Below the pieces are notes generated by a model. It did not search any database. It was not told where the DNA came from and was given only the letters and a program-made list of their open reading frames with translations. A DNA stretch of 11,411 nucleotides from Bacteroidota bacterium (lineage in GTDB: Bacteria; Bacteroidota; Bacteroidia; Bacteroidales; JAAYUG01), in assembly GCA_021812865.1 (NCBI GenBank), contig JAKAMP010000027.1, positions 1-11,411 on the forward strand, in the 5' to 3' direction. Position numbers and translations under genes: made by a program. Position 1 is the stretch's first letter. Each line of letters begins with the position of its first letter. This document shows, in pieces, positions 1 to 11,411 of this stretch.

Positions 1-757
1 CCAGGTTGCCATCGAGGGAGGCAGAAGAGGCAATATAGGTACCCAGATTGACCTGGTGCAGCAGCTTTCCCCATATGATATCGAACACATGCAGCTGACC
101 GTCGCATCCACCGAAGACGGTATACTTTCCGTTATTGGCCGGACAGCCGTTGATATAATTCTCTGTTGTATATTTCCATAACCTGCGCCCGTTGGCTGCA
201 TCCAGGCTATATAAGGAACAGTCGTAGCTTGCCACCACGATCCTCCATTTTCCTTTACCCACGGAATAAAAGTTTGCTGCACCCGAAATCTGGCCTTCCG
301 TGGCATATTTCCACCTGAGTTTGCCCGTCCCGGCATCGAGGGCTACCACCAGTCCCTCGAGGTTGCCGGCATATACAGTACCATTCAGGTACAAAGGCGG
401 GGCTTCCACGGCATTCCCGGTGTTATATTTCCAAACCAGTTTCCCGGTTTCGGACAGGCAATAGATGTTCCCGTCGTTAGAACCGATAAATATTTTTCCA
501 TCGCTTAGAATGGGCGACGACTTGGTACCATCGCCCATTTTGTAGGTCCAGAGCAGCTTATAAGAATGAAACAGCGGGGTTGCGGTAACGCCGGTAAGGG
601 AGGCTCCTCCGCGGAACGAGGGCCAGCCGGCGCCTGGCTGCGACATTACAGTGAAACCGGGAACCGATGCCAGGATGAGCGTGATCAGGAGGAAACGTTT
701 TATTATGAAGCCTGGTTTCACTGTTGAATTCTGAATAAATCGTTTTAGATCAATCAT
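1..757 (-). CDS. Secreted PQQ-like (BamB-type) beta-propeller protein, N-terminal part, truncated by window edge
   Basis: About 252 codons are readable from the ATG at 757-755, and the frame is still open at position 1, so the C-terminus is missing. Residues 20-39 form a basic-then-hydrophobic stretch (KRFLLITLILA) like a signal peptide, with a possible cleavage site before QPG at 40-42, so the protein is probably exported. A WPSFRG motif at 45-50 opens the propeller. Blade signatures follow: LSETGKLVWKY (101-111), LDAGTGKLRWKY (140-151) and LDAANGRRLWKY (185-196). The start ATG overlaps the TGA of the upstream flavoprotein gene by four bases (ATGA), which suggests translational coupling and fixes the start. 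PQQ-like repeats of this kind are usually structural or scaffolding (BamB is the model) and do not by themselves show PQQ binding. The substrate or partner is unknown; membership in the electron-transfer operon is inferred from the overlap. Confidence 0.85.
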   Translation of the reverse strand, partial: MIDLKRFIQNSTVKPGFIIKRFLLITLILASVPGFTVMSQPGAGWPSFRGGASLTGVTATPLFHSYKLLWTYKMGDGTKSSPILSDGKIFIGSNDGNIYCLSETGKLVWKYNTGNAVEAPPLYLNGTVYAGNLEGLVVALDAGTGKLRWKYATEGQISGAANFYSVGKGKWRIVVASYDCSLYSLDAANGRRLWKYTTENYINGCPANNGKYTVFGGCDGQLHVFDIIWGKLLHQVNLGTYIASSASLDGNL

Positions 758-2322
758 GTTTTATATTTAAATGACAATGCCCCCGTTGGACAACTTTCCA
801 CGCATTCCTTCACCGATTTGACGAGAGCGGCAGACATGGGCTTGCCGAAGGGCACCTCGATACGTACATCGAAACCACGGCCAATAAAAGTAAGTCCGGT
901 GTATTCATTGTTCTTCACAGTAATGTCGATGCAAAGTCCGCAGCGTATGCACTTTTCAGGTTCATACACCACTTCGGGATGATCGGTGTGTCTGGTCATC
1001 AGCTTTCTTTCGCCTGTGGCATACTTTTTCCTGTCGGCATGATAGGCATCGGCATAATTGCGCAATTTGCATTCGTCGAGCTTCCGGCAATCGCAATGCA
1101 TGCAGCGGGCTGCTTCGCGAATGGCTTCTTCGGGGGTGAAACCTGCCATTTCTCCACCTCCCGGCGCTATTTGTTTTTCACCGGACGCTTCGCGAAGGTA
1201 TTCTGCAAACTCAGGTTCACTGAGCTTATCGAAGCGGGAATTGAATTTCTTCCTTTCCGGGATGGGTTTCATACCCCGGAGGTACTGGTCGGCTGCAAGG
1301 GCCGCAGCTTTTCCCTGCGCCACGGCACGGACAGCCATTTTCTGTGCCCGTAGCACACTTCCGCAGGCAAATACTCCGGCTTCGGAAGTCTCATAAGTCC
1401 CTTCTGTAACGCTGATCCCTGATTTGCTGCTGCTGAAGAGCGACAACAATTCCCCTTCCACTGCAGTATCGCCTGTTGCCAGGATCACTGCATCATATCC
1501 TTTGCTAATCTCCGAAGCGAACAGCTCCCGGGAAACGGCGGTGCCCAGGATGAATCTGGCGCCGTAACGTTCTATTCTGTGAATCTCGGCATCCAGCGCT
1601 GCCCTGGTTAATTTTTCAGCCGGAACAGAATACCGCAGGGCGCCTCCTGCTTCCGCATTTTTATCGTATACCACGCAGCCATGTCCCTTCTGCAACAGGT
1701 AATAGGCTGCAGCCAGGCCGGCAGGACCAGAGCCAAGAATGGCCACTTTCTTGCCGGTTGAAACCTCCACGGGAGGCAGCCATTGTCCTGACTTCTCATC
1801 TTCGGCAGCCACAAAGCGCTTCAACAAGCATATGGAAACAGAATCATCAATTTGCCTTCGACGGCAGGCCTTTTCGCAGGGTGCAGGACATATAAATCCC
1901 AGGATATATGGCAAGGCGATTTCCTCTTTCACCACCTTCAGCGATTCATCAAAACGGTTGGCAGCGATCAGCCGGTTCATGAGCGGGATATTCATGCCGG
2001 CCGGACAAGCCAGGCTGCAGGGCGCCTCACAGTCGCCCACATGATCGCTCAGCAGCAGCTCCAGTGCATCCCTGCGCGCTTCCTTAACCTGTTCATCGTT
2101 GCTGATCAGGTCCATGCCTTCCGTAACTTTGATGGAGCAGGATGGGAAAAGATTACCTGTTTTCCTGTCCCTTACCATGCAAACCATGCAGGATGGATGG
2201 TTGTCGTGGCCCTCTTTATAGCACATGCTTGGAATATCCATTCCCGCAGTACGCGCCGCTTCGAGCACAGAACTACCTTCAGGTACGCTCAGGGAGATAT
2301 GATCGATGGTAAGATGAATCAT
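754..2322 (-). CDS. NuoG-like [2Fe-2S] / GltD-like flavoprotein fusion iron-sulfur oxidoreductase subunit
   Basis: This 522-residue protein is a cytoplasmic electron-transfer subunit. Residues 1-75 are a plant-type [2Fe-2S] domain as in NuoG or HydA (C34, C45, C48, C62). H94 with C98, C102 and C106 resembles the NuoG His-Cys cluster merging into the GltD/dihydropyrimidine dehydrogenase-type iron-sulfur domain, whose second half is CPAPCEKAC at 145-153 plus C165. An FAD-binding Rossmann motif, ILGSGPAGLAAA, lies at 195-206, followed by DAVILATGD (277-285) and GVFACGS (316-322). The NAD(P)H-binding domain that normally sits between the last two motifs in GltD relatives seems absent. The C-terminus has CMHCDC (407-412) with C418, then C458/C461/C464 and C507/C511 for a further [4Fe-4S] cluster. 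There is no signal peptide. One base separates it from the NuoEF fusion upstream, so it probably forms a complex with that protein. The exact reaction is unknown; FAD presence is predicted from the motif. Confidence 0.9.
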   Translation of the reverse strand: MIHLTIDHISLSVPEGSSVLEAARTAGMDIPSMCYKEGHDNHPSCMVCMVRDRKTGNLFPSCSIKVTEGMDLISNDEQVKEARRDALELLLSDHVGDCEAPCSLACPAGMNIPLMNRLIAANRFDESLKVVKEEIALPYILGFICPAPCEKACRRRQIDDSVSICLLKRFVAAEDEKSGQWLPPVEVSTGKKVAILGSGPAGLAAAYYLLQKGHGCVVYDKNAEAGGALRYSVPAEKLTRAALDAEIHRIERYGARFILGTAVSRELFASEISKGYDAVILATGDTAVEGELLSLFSSSKSGISVTEGTYETSEAGVFACGSVLRAQKMAVRAVAQGKAAALAADQYLRGMKPIPERKKFNSRFDKLSEPEFAEYLREASGEKQIAPGGGEMAGFTPEEAIREAARCMHCDCRKLDECKLRNYADAYHADRKKYATGERKLMTRHTDHPEVVYEPEKCIRCGLCIDITVKNNEYTGLTFIGRGFDVRIEVPFGKPMSAALVKSVKECVESCPTGALSFKYKT

Positions 2323-2323
2323 A

Positions 2324-4675
2324 TTATGTAGTTATCACGGCATTGACAGGACAAGCCTGCCTGCAGATGTCACACTGGATACATTTTTCATTGTCCACCA
2401 CGTGAATTTCATAGGGGTTGGCAGTAATTGCGCCCGAGGGGCACTGCTGCGCACACCGCGTACAGCCAATGCAGTCGGTTGTGATGGAATATTTCACCAG
2501 CCCTTTGCATTTGCCGGTAGGACACTTTCCATGAATATGCGCCTCGTATTCTTCCCTGAAATAGCGAAGTGTAGTAAGCACGGGATTGGGCGCCGATTTT
2601 CCCAGTCCGCAGATGCTGCCGCTCTTGGTCTTCAGTGCCAGGCTTTCCAGTTCAGCCAGGTCGCAGTCTGTGCCTTTCCCGTTGCTGATCTTCTCAAGGA
2701 TCTCAAGCATGCGGCGTGTTCCAATGCGGCAGAAGGTGCAACGTCCGCATGACTGGTCCTGGGTGAATGACAGGAAATAGCGGGCTATGTCGACCATGCA
2801 GTCGCTCTCGTCAAGCACTATGAGTCCTCCCGAGCCCATCATCGCGCCGGCAGCCGTAAGGGAGGCGTAATCAATGGGGATATCGGCCATGGAAGCAGGA
2901 ATGCACCCGCCCGAAGGTCCGCCGATCTGAATGGCCTTGAATTTTTTTCCATCGGGAATGCCTCCGCCAATCTCCTCCACGATCTTCCGGATGCTGATGC
3001 CCATGGGTACTTCAATGAGTCCTCCCCGGCTGATCTTTCCGGCCAGGGCAAACACCTTGGTTCCCTTGCTGTTTTCGGTTCCAATGGAATTGAAGGCTTC
3101 CGCGCCGTGCCGGATGATCCAGGAAATGAGCGAAAGGGTTTCTACATTGTTGATCAGGGTTGGCTTTCCATGCAGACCTTTGTTTGCCGGATAGGGGGGC
3201 CTCATGGTTGGCAGACCACGCTTCCCTTCCACCGAGGCAATCAGGGATGTCTCTTCCCCACACACAAAGGCGCCGGCTCCTTCAAAAATGCGAACATCAA
3301 AAGAAAAGCCGCTTCCAAGAACATGATCACCAAGAATCCCTTCGTGGCGGCATATTTCAATGGCTTCGCGTATACGCTTTACGGCCAGTGGATACTCTGC
3401 CCGGATGTAAAATAGTCCATTGTGCGCTCCCACCGCATATGCAGCAATGATCATTCCTTCGAGGATACGGAAAGGATAAGACTCAAGCAGCATCCGGTCC
3501 ATGAAAGCCCCGGGATCGCCCTCATCACCGTTGCAGATCATAAATTTTTCTTCTGAAACAGCTTCCCGTACAAGCTTCCATTTCACACCTGTCGGAAAAC
3601 CTGCTCCTCCCCTGCCCCTCAATCCGCTTTTAGCTATGATATCAATCACATCAGCAGGCGATTTCTCATGCAGGCAGCTATGCAAAGCCTTAAAACCATC
3701 CCTGCTTTTGTATTCATTTATATCCGAAGGTTTCATCTCTCCTCGGTATTCGGTGGCAATACTTACCTGTCCGTGCAAAAATTCAGCCACGGGTGTGTCA
3801 GTCTCGCCGGAGGAATAATGCTTTACCGAATGAGGCATGTCTTTCGTCACTAGCTGGTCGAATACATTGTAAAGGCTGTTTCTCAGCCTGGGCATGGCTT
3901 TCTCCGGCTTAAAATGATGGCGGATCACCTCGTTCACCTCTTCAGGTTTGATCTTTGCATAGAAGGAGGGTGCCTCTCCCGGTTTCTGAATCTCCAGAAT
4001 GGGAACCTGGTTGCAGATTCCCACGCAGCCTACGTGCTTCACGTTCACGTGTATGTTGTTCCGCCTGAGGGTGTTCTCAATTTCCGACTTTACGGCTGCA
4101 CTTCCGCTGGCCACGCAACATGAACCTAATCCGATGCGGATTTCACCCTGCACCCGTTCAACTCCGTCGAGGGTGGGGGCAACGGCCGGGGCCGCCGGAG
4201 ACCTTTTCAGGTGCAGGAAATCATCGAGTATTTCCGGAACCTTGCCGGTTGTGACGTGCCCGTACGTTACATCGTCGATCTGTACCACCGGGGCAAGGGT
4301 GCAGCACCCCAGGCAGGCCACCTGTTCAATGGTAAAAGTTCCACCGGCATCGGTATCCTCATGATTATGAAGCTTCAGCTCACGCCTGAGCGCATCGTGA
4401 ACCAGCATGGCGCCTTTTACGTGACAGGCTGTGCCCACGCATACCTTGATGATGTGCTTGCCTACAGGTCGGAGCCTGAACTGCGAGTAGAAGGTAGCAA
4501 TGCCATATACCGATGAAGGAACAATATCGGTGGTATCGCACACTCTCTGCAAGGCCTCTTCCGGAAGATAATTGAACTCCTGTTGAATGGCCTGCAGCAG
4601 AGGGATCACCTTATCGGTCGTCTTCCCGATCCGCCCAACAATTCTGTCAACTATGCCTGTGATGTTGTCTTTCAT
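2324..4675 (-). CDS. NuoE-NuoF fusion, NADH-dependent FMN/iron-sulfur oxidoreductase subunit (HydBC/HndC-like)
   Basis: This 783-residue protein should oxidise NADH or reduce NAD+ in the cytoplasm. Residues 1-155 are NuoE, with a thioredoxin-like [2Fe-2S] site at C79-x4-C84 and C121-x3-C125. Residues 175-255 form a second thioredoxin-like domain (GLGSCCVASG at 182-191, CVGIC at 217-221). Residues about 300-710 are NuoF: the FMN/NADH motifs GLRGRGGAGFPTG (351-363) and CNGDEGDPGAFMDR (381-394), the CGEETSL loop (472-478) and the SCGRCTFCRIG cluster site (642-652) with C689 as likely fourth ligand. Residues 733-783 carry two ferredoxin motifs (C735/738/741/745 and C765/768/771/775). This layout matches the flavin subunits of NAD-linked and bifurcating [FeFe] hydrogenases and formate dehydrogenases, with NuoE fused in front. 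No hydrogenase or formate dehydrogenase catalytic subunit is visible. The ATG at 4675 is preceded by a weak purine-rich stretch and fits the start of the NuoE domain. Confidence 0.95.
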   Translation of the reverse strand: MKDNITGIVDRIVGRIGKTTDKVIPLLQAIQQEFNYLPEEALQRVCDTTDIVPSSVYGIATFYSQFRLRPVGKHIIKVCVGTACHVKGAMLVHDALRRELKLHNHEDTDAGGTFTIEQVACLGCCTLAPVVQIDDVTYGHVTTGKVPEILDDFLHLKRSPAAPAVAPTLDGVERVQGEIRIGLGSCCVASGSAAVKSEIENTLRRNNIHVNVKHVGCVGICNQVPILEIQKPGEAPSFYAKIKPEEVNEVIRHHFKPEKAMPRLRNSLYNVFDQLVTKDMPHSVKHYSSGETDTPVAEFLHGQVSIATEYRGEMKPSDINEYKSRDGFKALHSCLHEKSPADVIDIIAKSGLRGRGGAGFPTGVKWKLVREAVSEEKFMICNGDEGDPGAFMDRMLLESYPFRILEGMIIAAYAVGAHNGLFYIRAEYPLAVKRIREAIEICRHEGILGDHVLGSGFSFDVRIFEGAGAFVCGEETSLIASVEGKRGLPTMRPPYPANKGLHGKPTLINNVETLSLISWIIRHGAEAFNSIGTENSKGTKVFALAGKISRGGLIEVPMGISIRKIVEEIGGGIPDGKKFKAIQIGGPSGGCIPASMADIPIDYASLTAAGAMMGSGGLIVLDESDCMVDIARYFLSFTQDQSCGRCTFCRIGTRRMLEILEKISNGKGTDCDLAELESLALKTKSGSICGLGKSAPNPVLTTLRYFREEYEAHIHGKCPTGKCKGLVKYSITTDCIGCTRCAQQCPSGAITANPYEIHVVDNEKCIQCDICRQACPVNAVITT

Positions 4676-4719
4676 TTTCCCTTATCCTTCTTTCCCGAAT
4701 AATCCTCGTTCAGCTTGAA

Positions 4720-6579
4720 TCATTTTCCTATACAATACAGGTTCTTCTCCCCCCTGATGAATATGCGTCCGTTGGCAAAGGCAGGGGTGCAGGAAACCGG
4801 TTCGCCCAGTTTAGGTTCACCCAGGGAAACATATTCCTTGTCGACCTTGAAAATATGTGTAATTCCGGTACGATCCACCAGGTACACCTTGCTTTCAGCA
4901 ATTACAGGGGAAGAGAACACTGAATTGTTCAGTTCCTTTTCCCAGAATTTGGTTCCGTTTTGTGCATCGTAGCAGGCAACCACTCCATAGCTGGTAACCA
5001 CGAACAGGTATTTGTCTGTTGCCACCGGGCTGGGGATATCCGAGAGGTACTCATCGCTCTCCCAGAGCTGTACGGGTGGATTGCCCAGCTTTATGGCAGC
5101 CAGCTTGGAATAATCGTTCACCGTAAAAACAATGCCATTGGCATAGGCTGCAGATGGGCCGACCTCTCCGGTAATGGCTTCGAGTTTCCACAGCTCAGCG
5201 CCGGTTTTCACGTCGTAGCCGGCTACATATGGTTCCGCTGCCGCAATGACCTCTTTGGAAGCGCCATTGGGAACCAAAATGGGTGATGACCAGGAGGCTT
5301 TCACCGGCCGGTTGGCGCTCCAGATTGTTTTCCCATTGGAAGTGTTCACTGCAAAAATCTTTGCACTGGTGTGCTGATCGAACTGGATGATAAGCATATT
5401 GTTGTATATCATCGGCGAAGAGGCATGCCCGTAATGGTTATTGGGGAAACCTATACTTTCGACCCAGAGCTGTTTGCCATTATGGTCAAGAGCGATGAGG
5501 TCGCCATTGGCAAACACGGCGTATATCCCCTGTGCATTGACAGCAGCCGTAGGCGCTGCAAAGCCGGTTTCCTTCGAAGCTTTCGGAACCTGGGAGGATG
5601 CGCCCGGGATCTTAGGGACGGTGGCCGTCCACAGTATCTTGCCTGTATTTTTGTCCAGGCAATACACTTCCCTCCTGGTTTCGCTGGCGCCGGTAAGGAA
5701 TATCTTATCGCCCCAGATCACCGGTGAGCTGTTTCCGGGCAGCGGAGTTGCCGTTTTCCAGAGGATGTTTTTACCGGAAGGGCCATCCCAGTCAAGGGGT
5801 ATGTTCTTCTGCACAGCAATACCATTGCCGTTGGGTCCGCGGAAGGTGGGATAAATCTCGCTGGCAGGGAGAGGCTGTCCTGCTTCTGCACTTCCGGCCT
5901 GTGAAAAGGCCGTCTTTTCTGCCACACCTGCCATTAAGGTAGTGGTATTTGATGCAACTGCGGAAGTCGTATCCTCGCCTGAGCCCTGTACAGATGCGGC
6001 AAGTGAATCGACCGGCCGGGTTTGAACGCCGGTACTGTCGGATTGAACAGCTGCAATTTTAGTTGCGTCGGAAGTTTTTTGCCGGAGTTCCCTGTTGGTG
6101 AGGAAGCCAAAAAGCAAAGAAAGAAACAACAGCAATCCTCCACCGGACAATATCAGTATTCTTGCTTTTTTCTGTACCACGAAGATATTCAGGTCCTGTT
6201 CCTCCGAAAGCTGAGGGTTGATCTTTCGTCGCAGCCTGATCCATTGCAGGGCAATCAGCATTACAGCCAGACCGGCAAGCAAAAGGTAACCGCCCATTCT
6301 GACCTGCCACTGGCTGGTGAAATATGCCTTCCTGGCCAGCAGATCGAGGGTACGTATCTGTTCGCGCAGCACGGTATCGCCCGGATTCTGGTTCAGACGG
6401 TCCACCAGGGCAGTGATCACCTGCATATTGGTAGGATCGGCCTTTTTCAGCTGGATGTAATTAGCTACCATGAGGATGCACACGACAAACGAGAAGACTC
6501 CTGCAATCATGGCGATCCGCTGCAGCAGTTTTTCGCCGGGCGCTCCTTCGTTTTCTTTATGACTCGATATTTCGTTCAT
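4720..6579 (-). CDS. PQQ-like beta-propeller protein on a three-helix membrane anchor
   Basis: This 619-residue protein has three predicted membrane helices (about 23-42, 96-115 and 140-160). The segment between helices one and two is polar and probably helical. The basic runs RLRRK (115-119) and KKAR (137-140) lie on the presumed cytoplasmic side, so the C-terminal part should face the periplasm. A Ser/Thr/Ala-rich linker spans about 170-240. The propeller then starts with YPTFRGPNGNG at 243-253 and has repeated blade signatures such as LDKNTGKILW and VNTSNGKTIW. Proteins with this FRGPNGNG start are common, mostly uncharacterised PQQ-like repeat proteins. I see no haem motif and no iron-sulfur motif. 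Its position between the NapH-like membrane protein and the NuoEF fusion suggests a membrane-bound partner of the electron-transfer complex, but the function is not shown by the sequence. Its start has no clear Shine-Dalgarno sequence. Confidence 0.88.
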   Translation of the reverse strand: MNEISSHKENEGAPGEKLLQRIAMIAGVFSFVVCILMVANYIQLKKADPTNMQVITALVDRLNQNPGDTVLREQIRTLDLLARKAYFTSQWQVRMGGYLLLAGLAVMLIALQWIRLRRKINPQLSEEQDLNIFVVQKKARILILSGGGLLLFLSLLFGFLTNRELRQKTSDATKIAAVQSDSTGVQTRPVDSLAASVQGSGEDTTSAVASNTTTLMAGVAEKTAFSQAGSAEAGQPLPASEIYPTFRGPNGNGIAVQKNIPLDWDGPSGKNILWKTATPLPGNSSPVIWGDKIFLTGASETRREVYCLDKNTGKILWTATVPKIPGASSQVPKASKETGFAAPTAAVNAQGIYAVFANGDLIALDHNGKQLWVESIGFPNNHYGHASSPMIYNNMLIIQFDQHTSAKIFAVNTSNGKTIWSANRPVKASWSSPILVPNGASKEVIAAAEPYVAGYDVKTGAELWKLEAITGEVGPSAAYANGIVFTVNDYSKLAAIKLGNPPVQLWESDEYLSDIPSPVATDKYLFVVTSYGVVACYDAQNGTKFWEKELNNSVFSSPVIAESKVYLVDRTGITHIFKVDKEYVSLGEPKLGEPVSCTPAFANGRIFIRGEKNLYCIGK

Positions 6580-6635
6580 AGCTCATTTTGCGTTCATTCC
6601 TGGTGTACTTACGTTTATGTTTTGGCTAATAGATG

Positions 6636-8000
6636 TCATTGTGCGGCCGACTTTTTCAAGGCATTGAGCTGGGCATCGTTCATGTCTGGTTTAACCGGAC
6701 AGTATTCCAGGCAGCGGCCACAGGAAAGGCATTCCCCCTTGCTTGGCCAATAACCTTTGCGATAACGTGGAATGGCCAATCTGGCGAGCGTTAGCCCGAT
6801 CACTAAGCCCACAAATCCTCCCAGGATCCAGCCACCCCAGTAAAACTGGCGCCTGATCGATGCCACTTCCTCATTCAGCTTATCGACAGCCTGTCCGGAT
6901 GATCTGAAGGTAGTTACATCGACCTGCTGAAGGGAGGTGAGCTGATTATCGGGAAGCAGCAGTTCACTGGCCAGACGTACCTTGGGATTCACATTAGCCA
7001 GGTTTCCATGGATCATCGAACCTCCAAAACCGCCAAGCAGCATAAACAGGGGAATGAGTATAGTGAAAAGGATCAGTCGTTTTACCGTTACGTTGCGGCT
7101 TTCCGGCGACTTATGCCCTAAAGGTTTATTGATGGCTCCGAAGGGACAGGAATTTTCGCATAAGCGACAGTCAATGCAAACGGTGGGTGTGATGGACAAA
7201 TGCTTTTTCGACACCCGGCTGACCAGGTTCAGCAGTACGCCATATGGGCAGAAGAACCGGCAGTAAGGCCTGGCGATGAAAACGCCAACCAGCAGGAATA
7301 ACACGCCGATAACGAACATAAAGAAAGGTGCATTGACGCGGAAGAATCCTACAAAAGGATCGTAGCGGCAAATGATGAAGTCGGTGCCGGTAGCGGCGTA
7401 CAGCACGGCCAGTCCCAGGTATATATACGGAACGAGGCCCAGCAACGATTGCACCCATTCGTTCAGCTTCATGGGTTTGATCGCAAAAACATCCTGTATG
7501 GCGCCCAGGGGGCATACGCCGGCGCAAAAGGTCCGGCCGTAAAACAAAGCAAACAGCAGGGGTATGATAAAAAAGGCAATGGCCGTAAGCGGAATATGGT
7601 ACTCCGGGTGAAAAAGGCCCAGTACGACATTCTGAAGGGAACCAACCGCGCAAATGCAGCCCTCGCGGTAAAATCCAAAATAAAGGATCGAAAATACCGT
7701 AACGCCGAAAACACCCATACGTGAACGTTTCTTCAACACGAACCATGTGACGAGCGAGATGCTTGCCAGGAGAACCACCACATCAAGGTATTCCAGAATG
7801 ATTGATCGCGGCATCGGCGCCTGGGTGGCAGGCACAACATATTTGCTCTCGAAGTCAGGTTTTGGGAAGCGCTGAATACCGAAATTATTCAAGGCCAACA
7901 AGGCCAACAATATAACCAGCATGGCTATGGACGCGCCCTTTTTCATGGGGACGCTGATATTTTTTTCTTTATCCGGACGATTAGGCTTGGCAGGGTTCAT
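6636..8000 (-). CDS. NapH/NosR/MauN-like polytopic 4Fe-4S membrane protein
   Basis: This 454-residue integral membrane protein has about eight predicted helices (near 21-38, 68-88, 96-112, 134-154, 184-203, 222-243, 306-327 and 386-408). Basic runs at 90-94 (KKRSR) and 412-415 fit an N-in, C-in topology. It carries the paired CX3CP motifs of the NosR/NapH family at 159-164 (CAGVCP) and 247-252 (CRFFCP). A ferredoxin motif lies at C275/278/281/285, and a second, CLSCGRCLEYCPVKP, at 424-438, after the last helix. Both should be cytoplasmic. Family members pass electrons between the quinone pool or cytoplasmic donors and periplasmic redox proteins. The Tat-exported polyferredoxin gene directly upstream matches the NapG-NapH and MauM-MauN pairing. 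A CxC pair at 115/117 lies on the presumed periplasmic side. Start at 8000; Met19 is a possible alternative. The specific partner is unknown. Confidence 0.9.
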   Translation of the reverse strand: MNPAKPNRPDKEKNISVPMKKGASIAMLVILLALLALNNFGIQRFPKPDFESKYVVPATQAPMPRSIILEYLDVVVLLASISLVTWFVLKKRSRMGVFGVTVFSILYFGFYREGCICAVGSLQNVVLGLFHPEYHIPLTAIAFFIIPLLFALFYGRTFCAGVCPLGAIQDVFAIKPMKLNEWVQSLLGLVPYIYLGLAVLYAATGTDFIICRYDPFVGFFRVNAPFFMFVIGVLFLLVGVFIARPYCRFFCPYGVLLNLVSRVSKKHLSITPTVCIDCRLCENSCPFGAINKPLGHKSPESRNVTVKRLILFTILIPLFMLLGGFGGSMIHGNLANVNPKVRLASELLLPDNQLTSLQQVDVTTFRSSGQAVDKLNEEVASIRRQFYWGGWILGGFVGLVIGLTLARLAIPRYRKGYWPSKGECLSCGRCLEYCPVKPDMNDAQLNALKKSAAQ

Positions 8001-8027
8001 ATTCCGGGATTATCATCAGTTTTAAAT

Positions 8028-8058
8028 CAATTCTATTTTTTTTGTAAGCATAAACAAA
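8028..8058 (-). promoter_or_regulatory. Possible internal promoter of Bacteroidota type ahead of the NapH-like gene
   Basis: Reading the minus strand, TTTG (8058-8055) is followed after 19 bases by TAGAATTG (8035-8028). Bacteroidota promoters typically have a -33 TTTG/TTG element and a -7 TAnnTTTG element about 19-21 bases apart; here the -7 box differs at one defined position. The site lies in the longest (71-base) and most AT-rich gap of the window and would give a leader of about 20 bases. Such AT-rich matches arise easily by chance, so this is tentative. Confidence 0.25.
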
Positions 8059-8071
8059 ACTTTCGCCCTGG

Positions 8072-8644
8072 TCACCCCTTCTTCGGGTTTTCAAAACCTC
8101 TCAGCTGGTATGCTTCCGACAGGGGAACGCGGCTCCATGCCTCTGCCGGACATGCACGTGCGATGGAACATTCGTTGCAGTTCACGCAAATTTTATGCTG
8201 GGCCTGCAACTGAAGCGAACCATTGCCGAATGCATTGCAACCTTTCACACATTTACCGCATCCAATGCAAAGTTTTTCATCGATGGTGTATTCAAAGAAA
8301 GGCTCTTCAACGAATTTGCGTTTGATGGCGCTGGTGGGACACAACTGGCTCTCGGCTGCTGTATTGAATTCCTTCGTTTCCGGCCTGAGATATCCGCCGC
8401 AGAGGTCGCAGTACCCGCACATATCATATACATGGATACACTTCACGGCCGAAGGCGTAAGCACACAGTTCGTTGCGCAGCGCCCGCACTGCACGCACTT
8501 GGAGGGATCGAGCTGCCACACATAATTTCCCGCATTGGTTTTTCGGGCCAGAAAAGCAGCCACCCCCACCAGGCTGAGCCCGATTCCTGTTCTCAGACTT
8601 TTATGCAAAAAATCACGCCGGTTGAATTTGTCCTGGTTTTCCAT
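8072..8644 (-). CDS. Tat-exported polyferredoxin (NapG/MauM-like 4Fe-4S protein)
   Basis: This 190-residue periplasmic electron carrier begins at the ATG at 8644-8642. An in-frame Met further upstream (8710) would extend into the preceding gene and push the Tat signal inward, so it is rejected. The twin-arginine motif NRRDFLHKS (8-16) precedes a hydrophobic stretch (19-32) and a plausible cleavage site after TNA (36-38). Seventeen cysteines follow in the body: C50/53/56/60, C69, C76/79/82, C102, C126/129/132/136 and C153/156/159/165. The spacing allows up to four [4Fe-4S] clusters. The twin-Arg leader, the multi-cluster layout and the NapH-like gene downstream match the NapG/NapH and MauM/MauN pairs, in which the soluble ferredoxin takes electrons from, or gives them to, the membrane partner. 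Sixteen bases separate it from the NHL gene upstream. The exact redox partner on the periplasmic side is not identifiable; one of the propeller proteins is a reasonable guess only. Confidence 0.9.
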   Translation of the reverse strand: MENQDKFNRRDFLHKSLRTGIGLSLVGVAAFLARKTNAGNYVWQLDPSKCVQCGRCATNCVLTPSAVKCIHVYDMCGYCDLCGGYLRPETKEFNTAAESQLCPTSAIKRKFVEEPFFEYTIDEKLCIGCGKCVKGCNAFGNGSLQLQAQHKICVNCNECSIARACPAEAWSRVPLSEAYQLRGFENPKKG

Positions 8645-8660
8645 AGCATCTGAACTTAAG

Positions 8661-9647
8661 TTATTTCCTGGCATATACCCGCACAAGCATAGACTGGCCG
8701 TCAAGTGCATAAATATTTCCGTCCCGGTCTACTGCCAGGTCGTGAATAGGAGCGCTGATGGTACATGTATTCAGGGACTTTTCATTGACTTCGGCAGGTC
8801 CGGTCACTGCGCAAACATATTTACCAACCGGGTCGTATAACTTAATGCGGTCGAGTCCTTTTTCATAGGTTACAAAGTACCCGTTCTGCAAAATGGCAAA
8901 ATGAACCGGATTGCAGCAACCGGCAAAGCCTTCCAGAGACATGGAAGCCATTCCCCAGGAAGAGAGCAGTTCTCCTTCAGGAGAAAAATGTTCCAACTGG
9001 TGCATGCCCGTGTTGGCAGCCCAAAGCTCGTTGTATGGTCCGGCAGCAATGTCGAAATACAGGCTGGGAATGATGAATCCCTTCACCCCTTTTGTGGTGT
9101 CTTTCTTTCCGATGGTATTGATCAGCCTGCCCTGGTCATCGTATCTCAGGATGATGCTGTTCTGGGCGTCGGCCGCGTAAATATCATTACCCATGCTGGC
9201 GAGGGACGTGAAATAGCTGTCTTCGAGATAGGGTTTCCACACAGCCATGCGCTTCCCCTTCATATCGAATACTTCCACATGGTTTGCCAGTCCAAGGTAT
9301 ATGGCTTTGCCCGGATCGAGCGCAATGGAACTGAGGTTTGAATCAACCCGGAAGCTGAAAAGCATCTTCCAGTCTTTGTTGTAAACCTGCACTTCTTTGT
9401 CGCTGCACACATAGGCATTGAGTTCATCATCCAGGACAATGGCCGTAAAATTCTTCAGTGTCGTTTTCAGTTCCCGGATCTCCCTGTAGCATATCTGGCT
9501 TGAATCGATTTGTTTCAGTTTGTCGATGCTGTACATGTCAGGATTGGGCGCTTTCGAGGAGGGCCCCCTGAAAAAATCCAGCACGATCAGTACGATTAAC
9601 GCGATCAGGATCAGGACGGACAATCCGAGGATCAATCTCTGTTTCAT
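8661..9647 (-). CDS. Membrane-anchored NHL-type (six-bladed) beta-propeller protein
   Basis: This 328-residue protein has one N-terminal membrane helix (about 5-24) followed by FFRGPSSK, which suggests either an uncleaved anchor or a signal peptide with the propeller in the periplasm. The rest is built from NHL/SMP-30-like blades with recurring aromatic and Asp-x-x-Gly turns, for example YDDQGRLINTIG (169-180), FSPEGELLSSWG (221-232) and AVDRDGNIYALD (305-316). A GCCNP motif with two adjacent cysteines lies at 243-247. NHL propellers usually mediate binding to proteins or small ligands, and some are enzymes; nothing here fixes a catalytic role. It lies 29 bases downstream of a PQQ-like propeller gene and 16 bases upstream of the polyferredoxin, so it probably works on the same periplasmic complex. 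The assignment to the NHL class is from blade pattern only. Confidence 0.82.
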   Translation of the reverse strand: MKQRLILGLSVLILIALIVLIVLDFFRGPSSKAPNPDMYSIDKLKQIDSSQICYREIRELKTTLKNFTAIVLDDELNAYVCSDKEVQVYNKDWKMLFSFRVDSNLSSIALDPGKAIYLGLANHVEVFDMKGKRMAVWKPYLEDSYFTSLASMGNDIYAADAQNSIILRYDDQGRLINTIGKKDTTKGVKGFIIPSLYFDIAAGPYNELWAANTGMHQLEHFSPEGELLSSWGMASMSLEGFAGCCNPVHFAILQNGYFVTYEKGLDRIKLYDPVGKYVCAVTGPAEVNEKSLNTCTISAPIHDLAVDRDGNIYALDGQSMLVRVYARK

Positions 9648-9676
9648 GGCGCTGTGGTTTTTGACATATGATCAGC

Positions 9677-11104
9677 TCATTTTGTGCGCATATCTAAACA
9701 TACCATTTGTTTGGAATCCCTCAGAAGCAGGTATCCGTCGGCCATGGCCATGGGACCCCAGGCATCCTGACCGTCAAAGAGCTTTGCTTTATCGAGGTAT
9801 TGAAATTCCGATAAATTGGCTTTGGCAATGGACAGTGTACCGTCATCGTTCAGTATGAAGAATTTTCCATCGGCGAGCAGATATGGCCCCAGCCCATAGC
9901 GATCGGTTTTGCTGCTGGTCCAGAGTATCTTTGTTACGTCGTTCTCATCCACGCATACGAACTGGTTGCGGCCTGCTCCGGCATCTTTAGGAAGGATGGC
10001 GAAGATATGGTGACGGTAAAAAATGGGGGTCTGCTGCTCTGATGCCAGCCCGCTGGAAGGTTTGTATTCCTTCAGTATTTTCACAGAGAATCTGTCTCCG
10101 GAAGGCACGAGCTGAATAAGCATGGAACCATAGCCATAACCGGCAGTCAGCAATATTTTTCCGTCATCGAGTACCAGAGGTGAGGGAGCAATTACCGAAG
10201 CCATGAATTTATCGGTCTCCCACAGGATCCTCCCCTTGTCCCTTCCCGAACCCGACACTCCACAAACCCCGCCAATGGCCGAATACACATACATTTTCTT
10301 CCCGTTAAAAGTCATAGGAATAACAGATGAATGGGACATTTTCCATTTACCCGAATTGGGCGTTTTCCAGCACACCTTGCCGGTTTTGCAGTCAACCCCA
10401 ATCATCAGTGATGTGCCTGCAGGGGCAATGATGGCAGTGTCGTGGTCGATGAGCGGGCACTGGCCGGTATACCAGAGCGGGACCTCGGTATTGAATTCGC
10501 GGGCCAGGTCAATACCCCAGAGAAAATTGCCATTGATGGGATCGGTACACATTACCTGGCACCTGGGCCCGATCGTGACCACATATTTGTCCGTCACGGC
10601 GGGAATGGTGCGCGACATACCATGATTCCGTTTCAGGTTCACTGCATACCATCGCCTCCACAACTCCTGCCCTGTTTCAAGGGAAAAACAACGCAGGGCA
10701 TCATCTTTCTTTCGTTCATCATAATCGAGCACATACACCCGTCCGTTATATATGGCCGGTGCGGCATGACCATCGCCCAGTTCGACCTTCCACAGAATTT
10801 TTGGGCCGCTGCTTCCAAATTTATCGATCAGTTTTATCTTTTCCTTATCGATATTATCAATATCCGCTCCCCTGAACCGGGGCCATTTGCCTGTAAGGGT
10901 GGTCTTGATCGTACCGTATTCCTTGAATTTCTCTCCAATGATCACACTGTCCGACATAACCGTTTTCAGCGGACGGTTATCCTGTCCGGGCACATTGGCC
11001 TTCATATCCCTCACCGGATTATGAAAAAACCACCAGAGAAAGGCAACCATCCCGATTCCCGCCACAACCGATAATACGATCCTTTCTTTTGCTTTTTCTT
11101 TCAT
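9677..11104 (-). CDS. Membrane-anchored PQQ-like (BamB-type) beta-propeller protein
   Basis: This 475-residue protein starts with a basic segment and one membrane helix (about 9-27, ending in FLWWFFHNP), so it is probably anchored with the rest in the periplasm. After a linker, WPRFRG at 74-79 opens the propeller. Blade signatures include FSLETGQELWRRW (140-152), TDPINGNFLW (187-196) and VDCKTGKVCW (237-246), and the last blade ends in LDMRTK. The WPxFRG start is shared with two other propeller proteins of this window, and the gene upstream has a similar C-terminal end, so these look like paralogues. I see no CXXCH motif and no vicinal disulfide typical of true PQQ-dependent dehydrogenases; the family name does not prove cofactor binding. 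Its gene follows the frameshifted propeller gene by about 60 bases. Confidence 0.88.
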   Translation of the reverse strand: MKEKAKERIVLSVVAGIGMVAFLWWFFHNPVRDMKANVPGQDNRPLKTVMSDSVIIGEKFKEYGTIKTTLTGKWPRFRGADIDNIDKEKIKLIDKFGSSGPKILWKVELGDGHAAPAIYNGRVYVLDYDERKKDDALRCFSLETGQELWRRWYAVNLKRNHGMSRTIPAVTDKYVVTIGPRCQVMCTDPINGNFLWGIDLAREFNTEVPLWYTGQCPLIDHDTAIIAPAGTSLMIGVDCKTGKVCWKTPNSGKWKMSHSSVIPMTFNGKKMYVYSAIGGVCGVSGSGRDKGRILWETDKFMASVIAPSPLVLDDGKILLTAGYGYGSMLIQLVPSGDRFSVKILKEYKPSSGLASEQQTPIFYRHHIFAILPKDAGAGRNQFVCVDENDVTKILWTSSKTDRYGLGPYLLADGKFFILNDDGTLSIAKANLSEFQYLDKAKLFDGQDAWGPMAMADGYLLLRDSKQMVCLDMRTK

Positions 11105-11161
11105 TGCCTTGTCCCAACTATTCCATTAATCCGGCTGGCAGAGCAAACGCACTGTTGAATA

Positions 11162-11411
11162 CTATTCCTTCTGCCTGATATCGTATGCCAAAAGAGCTTT
11201 GCCGTGTCTTATCCAGAGAATGCCCTGGCTGATTACCGGGTGGCGAAGTATTCCTGGTTGCCTTTATCGATTTTGAATTTCCCGGCAATTTCCATTTTCG
11301 GGCCCCCAGCATTCAGCAAAGTTACTTCACCATTATCGGAATAACAATATAACCGGTCATCGGCATAAACTAAGCTGGCATCCTTGGTTTTCAGTGAATC
11401 CGTGACCTGTC
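11162..11411 (-). CDS. PQQ-like beta-propeller protein, C-terminal part, truncated by window edge and frameshifted
   Basis: Only the last about 80 residues are in the window; the N-terminus lies beyond the right edge. One frame runs from the edge to a TAA at 11235-11233 and ends in the residues DKGNQEYFATR. A second frame, offset by one base, then gives HPVISQGILWIRHGKALLAYDIRQKE and stops with TAG at 11164-11162. Joined, the two give the usual C-terminal blade of PQQ-like proteins (FAHPVISQGILWIRHG is the expected continuation). This implies one missing base between 11244 and 11241, where GCC-CAC would be expected in place of GCC-ACC. The visible blade DNGEVTLLNA fits a BamB-type repeat. The gene is either slightly truncated at its end, broken, or intact with a sequencing or assembly error. 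Function is not known; see the neighbouring paralogue at 11104-9677. Confidence 0.75.

Follow-up and report, generated by a model that had tools for sequence, protein, structure and literature searches.

The window analysed here, an 11,411-nucleotide stretch of DNA from a Bacteroidota bacterium (assembly GCA_021812865.1), is the entire contig C550 (JAKAMP010000027.1) of a genome that is 79% complete. Nine genes on its minus strand belong to an operon whose products, in a proposal that we would defend and doubt in equal measure, form a membrane-linked enzyme of the Bfu electron-bifurcating family that would couple NADH and ferredoxin to periplasmic electrons via a NapH-like protein, a polyferredoxin and an NHL propeller protein.

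Gene set and Bfu core

As the initial annotation had described, the nine genes were co-directional and closely packed: eight were taken from the open reading frame (ORF) list and the ninth, a partial gene for a pyrroloquinoline quinone (PQQ)-like propeller named PQQ0, was read from the sequence by eye, and the spacing between ORFs ranged from −50 to +71 bases. The −50 overlap, between the NHL and polyferredoxin ORFs, is probably merely apparent; since the closest polyferredoxin homologues are ~190 amino acids (aa) long, a later start near 8644 is proposed for this gene. Families of the eight ORFs were confirmed by Pfam and NCBIfam, which supports the module list given earlier, and the calls for NHL (21.0 bits versus a cut-off of 20) and NapH (NCBIfam napH_, 51.2 bits versus a cut-off of 213) were weak yet significant. 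The named loci closest to the window are titled Bacteroidales. PQQ0 contains a single frame break near its 3' end, either real or an assembly error. In order of transcription, the genes are as follows.

11172..11411 (left end ~11172), minus strand: PQQ0, terminal (3') part of a gene for a PQQ-like propeller, truncated by the contig end (by-eye reading against the homologous locus L052)
9677..11104, minus strand: PQQa, membrane-anchored PQQ-like (BamB-type) propeller, 475 aa
8661..9647, minus strand: NHL propeller of 328 aa with a membrane anchor at the N terminus and an invariant GCCNP at residues 243-247
8072..8710, minus strand: polyferredoxin of the NapG type with a Tat-type signal (RRxF) and 16 invariant Cys for four [4Fe-4S]; the gene probably starts near 8644
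6636..8000, minus strand: NapH-like membrane iron-sulfur protein, extra C115-x-C117 and C211, 454-aa ORF, start maybe internal near 7946
4720..6579, minus strand: PQQc, PQQ-like propeller, three N-terminal transmembrane-like segments, 619 aa
2324..4675, minus strand: BfuC-BfuB fusion (NuoE, NuoF and C-terminal dicluster), 783 aa
754..2322, minus strand: BfuA, StnC-like, 522 aa, without NADP(H) domain and C-terminal formate dehydrogenase (Fdh)-like domain
2..757, minus strand: PQQd, 5' part of a PQQ-like propeller gene, hydrophobic N-terminal segment, open at the contig end

Conservation of this set was assessed in two draws of loci. For the first, genome contigs were scanned with the GltD-like protein (BfuA) alone and the best 80 of 121 loci were used, each neighbour being counted only over loci long enough to test it. 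Upstream of bfuA, we found the NuoEF fusion in 64/67, PQQc in 53/58, NapH in 50/55, the polyferredoxin in 47/54, NHL in 45/53 and PQQa in 44/51 testable loci, and PQQd was found downstream in 61/74; each neighbour was thus present in 82 to 96% of testable loci, with the order kept. Such conservation, in 80 loci chosen with no other probe than the GltD-like protein, speaks against a chance arrangement. Two doubts voiced in the initial annotation, that the set might not be kept in related genomes and that the NuoEF/GltD pair might sit mostly beside an unrelated hydrogenase or formate dehydrogenase, were not borne out, as the fusion lies directly upstream, and the NapH-like gene is retained, in the proportions just given. 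No hydrogenase or formate dehydrogenase subunit was recognised among the conserved neighbours (families present in at least 3 loci plus gene orders, some of them Pfam-scanned), and the genome's hydrogenase-type sets lie on other contigs; a hydrogenase or formate dehydrogenase module was rejected on these grounds. In the window genome, NuoF-type subunits stand beside [FeFe] hydrogenase-domain proteins on C53 (L162) and C179 (L163).

The second set was drawn with the polyferredoxin, which matched in 69 of 393 genomes of the order (its own genome included), 66 of them strongly. Forty of the 69 were fetched by choice (high scores, long contigs and three weak matches); 5 contigs were shared with the first set and 35 were new. 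Among 37 strong loci, the testable neighbours were NapH (36/37), PQQc (33/37), NuoEF (32/35), NHL (32/35), PQQa (30/33), PQQd (26/32) and BfuA (25/34), the last being an undercount, as the coverage threshold misses split or short forms: BfuA stands in the gene-order lists for five of the nine counted misses (L135, L149, L150, L152 and L155) and on the opposite strand in L125. Across the 393 genomes, the fused NuoEF was present in 61 and a strong polyferredoxin in 66, both together in 57, the polyferredoxin only in 9 and NuoEF only in 4 (Fisher P = 6.6e-54, which is no clean probability, the genomes being related). Within the order the system is therefore not rare. In a phylum-wide sample, the polyferredoxin was matched at E <= 1e-30 in 1 of 296 genomes, the window's own, and in the window's own family in 1 of 3 genomes, again its own; from these two counts, the distribution is patchy. 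Two loci came from metagenome-assembled genomes titled Victivallis vadensis and Kiritimatiellae. The operon is also present in the cultured genera Marinifilum, Labilibaculum and Ancylomarina, so that the system is experimentally testable.

The family to which the NuoEF fusion was assigned, Bfu, is defined by the core domains of BfuB and BfuC, as set out in a passage of Schut et al. (PMC9304861). All of these were recognised within the one fused protein: a NuoE domain with C1 ligands (kept in 66/68 rows, the remaining two having gaps), a second thioredoxin-like domain with B5 ligands, a flavin mononucleotide (FMN)/NADH fold, B1 ligands and a C-terminal dicluster. Pfam matches comprised Nuo51 FMN, NADH_4Fe-4S, SLBB (under its cut-off, 21.9 versus 27), C-terminal 4Fe-4S and thioredoxin-like [2Fe-2S]. 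The best solved relatives were the BfuB chains of bifurcating enzymes (9n5u_B, 9bov_B, 8oh5_B and HydB). A histidine ligand of the B2 cluster is described by Schut et al. (PMC9304861), in the section bearing on it, as shared by practically every BfuB but missing from homologues that do not bifurcate; H713 of the fusion, together with C718, C723 and C626, was invariant in 68/68 rows (window included) and in 31/31 rows of the second set, the matching of ligands being read from alignments. Judged by these motifs, the NuoEF fusion comprises a BfuBC core that is complete and joined in one chain. Because this core has a C-terminal ferredoxin-type dicluster, ferredoxin would be a further electron pool.

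The GltD-like protein, BfuA, is by sequence nearest to StnC of the StnABC transhydrogenase. Its matches to StnC-type chains flank a gap of ~135 residues (287-424 or 291-425 in chain numbering), and its model aligned over 514/522 residues to 9bov_A and 8oh5_C 3-677, superposing without the NADP(H) domain. This domain was absent in 81/81 BfuA proteins of the first draw (lengths, 503 to 558 aa), and the Fe-S motifs were retained. A function as Stn transhydrogenase was rejected in view of the missing NADP(H) domain (alignment gap, 81/81 lengths and model superposition). The families named for the NuoEF and GltD modules in the initial annotation were right; as to their nature, the former is no ordinary NADH module, having a complete BfuBC core with a ferredoxin dicluster, and the latter is without its NADP(H) domain. 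The equivalent of StnC R239 was R in 8/81 rows, K in 25 and E in 24. In 5/31 further BfuA ORFs, placed in the same operon, the flavin adenine dinucleotide (FAD) domain was also gone and only the Fe-S wire was left; because of this loss, the third partner of BfuA should be a protein. The series from StnC (NADP(H) and FAD), through the FAD fold only, to no FAD domain is a natural experiment on the role of BfuA. At L153 (1447-4050, minus strand), a single frame of 867 aa encodes both BfuA and PQQd, joined by a hydrophobic segment.

Membrane and periplasmic proteins

The NapH-like protein keeps two CX3CP and two [4Fe-4S] motifs in a protein with multiple transmembrane segments, and no solved relative was found by sequence at E <= 0.01. 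Three extra cysteines, C115, C117 and C211, were present in 55/55 rows of the first set and 38/38 of the second, and are absent from E. coli K-12 NapH. Simple hydropathy and the positive-inside rule, applied partly by eye, placed these three at the periplasmic face of the membrane and assigned the other motifs to its cytoplasmic face.

The polyferredoxin has a Tat-type signal and is predicted to be exported: RRx[FL] was present in 34/34 rows, as were 16 invariant Cys corresponding to four [4Fe-4S] motifs, and no solved relative was found by sequence at E <= 0.001. TatC was detected in 329/393 genomes, too common to discriminate, and in 62/66 genomes with a strong polyferredoxin (listing by eye), the four without a match being the window genome (G000), G364, G555 and G624. 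At E <= 1e-20, the polyferredoxin has matches in 5,897 protein clusters, counted by sequence with gene context aside. Many named homologues are labelled RnfB, which looks like widespread misannotation.

The NHL protein, which bears a membrane anchor, folds as an ordinary six-bladed NHL propeller. Its GCCNP motif was present in 47/47 rows of the first set and 34/35 of the second, the exception being a 210-aa fragment, and this motif is the leading candidate for a redox site, either relay or terminal. Of the three PQQ-like propellers that were scanned, PQQd and PQQc exceeded the cut-off of Pfam PF01011. An identity as PQQ-dependent dehydrogenases was not supported by NCBIfam, TIGR03075 scoring 67.5 (PQQd) and 55.1 (PQQc) versus a cut-off of 480, with no match for PQQa. 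A search for pqqC gave 0/20 genomes, with the controls equally silent. Among solved structures, the sole match of PQQa was to tetrathionate hydrolase and was weak. For the PQQ-like propellers, a docking or scaffold role is more probable than activity as PQQ enzymes.

The NHL-polyferredoxin-NapH trio was also found, diverged, in three genomes, in mini-clusters encoding a PhnD-like lipoprotein, a Tat-type polyferredoxin, a NapH-like protein and a GCCNP-containing NHL protein:

L136, 582-4442
L137, 2935-7139
L138, 1220-5358

No Bfu genes and no PQQ-like propellers were found on those 5- to 9-kb contigs, and the mini-cluster is probably an independent periplasmic redox system. Because the trio occurs without Bfu genes in three genomes, it constitutes a separate module to which Bfu was added as a partner.

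Beyond the window, the operon continues on contig C283 of the same genome into genes for a GT4 glycosyltransferase, a LolD-type ATPase and an FtsX-type permease; the first base of C283 falls at residue 3 of the GT4 match, i.e., the contig opens inside the GT4 gene. The nine genes of the initial annotation therefore stand as a set that is real and incomplete. After the operon, GT4 was found in 41/85, LolD in 43/85 and FtsX in 34/85 clustered loci, many of which are too short to show them, and in four Marinifilum loci (L042, L049, L050 and L061) FtsX was not found directly after LolD. Several relatives have further genes next to the operon, encoding a 4Fe-4S protein, a radical SAM protein, a fusion of polyprenyl synthase and DUF116, and squalene-cyclase-like proteins; such neighbours are at L061 (15267-21525), at L022, L042 and L049, and at L135, L147 and L152.

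Electron flow and rival readings

The initial annotation had read the set as a transmembrane electron-transfer system, and the motifs described above support this. In the coupling that we propose, electrons of NADH (at FMN) and of reduced ferredoxin (at the C-terminal dicluster of BfuB) would be merged, and BfuA would pass them to the NapH-like protein at its cytoplasmic clusters. The CX3CP cysteines of this protein, with its extra cysteines on the periplasmic side, would take them across the membrane to the polyferredoxin, which would hand them to the NHL protein, perhaps at GCCNP. They would arrive in the periplasm at a lower potential than could be had from NADH by itself. We infer that export is favoured over import, since no conserved periplasmic dehydrogenase was found, the membrane potential aids outward electron flow and hosts of known physiology ferment.

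Tentatively, and with rather more doubt than belief, this coupling may be specified as a low-potential export pump, in which confurcation with ferredoxin would lift NADH electrons to ~-400 mV, an Fe-S wire without cytochrome or quinone would carry them, and a propeller-based periplasmic reductase with an adjacent-cysteine site would receive them; the pump would provide an electron sink for fermentative Bacteroidota, possibly including Fe(III). Labilibaculum filiforme 59.16B carries the operon (L043) and, according to a passage on its physiology, passes some electrons to Fe(III) while fermenting, by a route left unsettled there (PMC5760507). Because its genome also has a predicted ferric reductase and cytochromes, as a further passage of the same source states, the link between the operon and Fe(III) is just a lead.

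Several observations weigh against the proposed coupling. No terminal oxidoreductase was recognised at the operon, and the adjacent NapH-like protein is put forward as the obvious candidate for the partner of BfuA from the gene neighbourhood only. A further B2 ligand position of the BfuB part, S664, is variable (C in 24, R in 17, T in 10, K in 9 and S in 7 of 68 rows, i.e., Arg or Lys in 26/68), and the B1 cysteine C649 is lost in 1/31 rows of the second set; as far as alignments can tell, both count against an exact identity of the B2 and B1 clusters. Three first-set loci, L007, L071 and L075, are without the entire upstream set beside BfuA, L075 having part of it downstream, and in none of them was a hydrogenase or formate dehydrogenase gene recognised among the neighbours (by eye, without a family search). 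The other first-set misses are partial losses.

The strongest rival, which we consider unlikely, is that the flow is reversed: a periplasmic donor would be oxidised at the assembly of propellers and NHL protein, the polyferredoxin and then the NapH-like protein would carry its electrons inward, and BfuA would receive them for bifurcation to NAD+ and ferredoxin. Reversibility of Bfu enzymes is described by Schut et al. (PMC9304861), NapH-like systems are reported with oxidases as well as reductases in the relevant section of PMC8238504, and the propellers could recognise a periplasmic substrate; such a donor would, however, need ~-400 mV, no periplasmic dehydrogenase was found among the conserved neighbours, and the propellers score far under the PQQ-dehydrogenase cut-offs.

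We regard as improbable a quinone-linked arrangement, in which the NapH-like protein would exchange electrons with menaquinone, Bfu would act as a confurcating NADH/ferredoxin:quinone enzyme and the periplasmic proteins would form a quinol-driven branch. Precedents are at hand, NapH being described as a putative quinone-binding subunit in a passage of PMC8238504 and a quinone-linked Nuo-Bfu having been proposed in one of PMC9304861. The invariance of C115, C117 and C211 and their absence from E. coli NapH, however, suggest a wire through the membrane instead.

Least probable of the readings weighed is that exported electrons serve maturation or envelope building, making or repairing a periplasmic product (a protein cofactor, a disulfide or a lipid-linked glycan) that GT4, LolD and FtsX would handle: these three follow the operon in many loci, some relatives have isoprenoid and squalene-cyclase-like genes close by and MauM/MauN are suspected of a maturation role, but no product or target was recognised and FtsX does not directly follow LolD in the four Marinifilum loci.

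Comparison with known systems

The initial annotation knew of no system that joins these modules, and no description of this gene set was found in the literature searched (open-licence PMC papers, supplements excluded). Closest are StnABC and Nfn-Bfu (8oh5 from Sporomusa ovata, 9bov from Caldicellulosiruptor and 9n5u from Thermococcus sibiricus), with which the operon shares the cofactor ligands of BfuB and, in BfuA, the N-terminal ferredoxin, GltD-type Fe-S domain, FAD-type fold and dicluster. Unlike in those enzymes, BfuC and BfuB are fused here, and BfuA is shorter by the NADP(H) domain as well as by the Fdh-like C-terminal half; at the position equivalent to R239, just 8/81 rows have Arg. 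The genes, moreover, stand beside those of a membrane and periplasmic chain. The bifurcating hydrogenases HydABC and NiFe-HydABCSL have the BfuBC core in common with the operon, whose conserved set is without a hydrogenase subunit.

In the sections of Schut et al. (PMC9304861) that bear on the family, 17 BfuB clades are left without an assigned function, and the fused BfuCB described here may be one of them. Two other membrane-bound kinds, Mbh-Bfu and Nuo-Bfu, are predicted in the same sections (PMC9304861); in these, too, a Bfu core is joined to membrane proteins, which are hydrogenase or complex I membrane subunits as described there, whereas the operon has a NapH-like protein, a polyferredoxin and propellers.

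NapG-NapH of E. coli K-12 resembles the membrane chain: its NapH likewise carries CX3CP pairs and two [4Fe-4S] motifs, and its NapG an RRxF signal and clusters. It differs, as do the flavinylated NapH-like systems in the part of PMC8238504 devoted to them, in that the operon has the extra C115, C117 and C211 and its conserved genes are without NapA/B and an FMN-binding domain; a Bfu donor would here take the place of the quinol donor of NapG-NapH. The mini-clusters of L136 to L138 share the three-part chain, GCCNP and the Cys pattern, and differ in their PhnD-like lipoprotein and in having neither Bfu genes nor PQQ-like propellers on those contigs.

The named solved relatives found for the Bfu core are all hydrogenases or transhydrogenases, and a membrane chain of the NapH type accompanies none of them. 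By its sequence motifs, the electron-bifurcating core itself is of a known kind, and its union with a NapH-type membrane chain and periplasmic proteins appears to be the new part. If the proposed coupling is true, bifurcation chemistry would be wired through the membrane, and electrons more reducing than those of NADH would be delivered to the periplasm.

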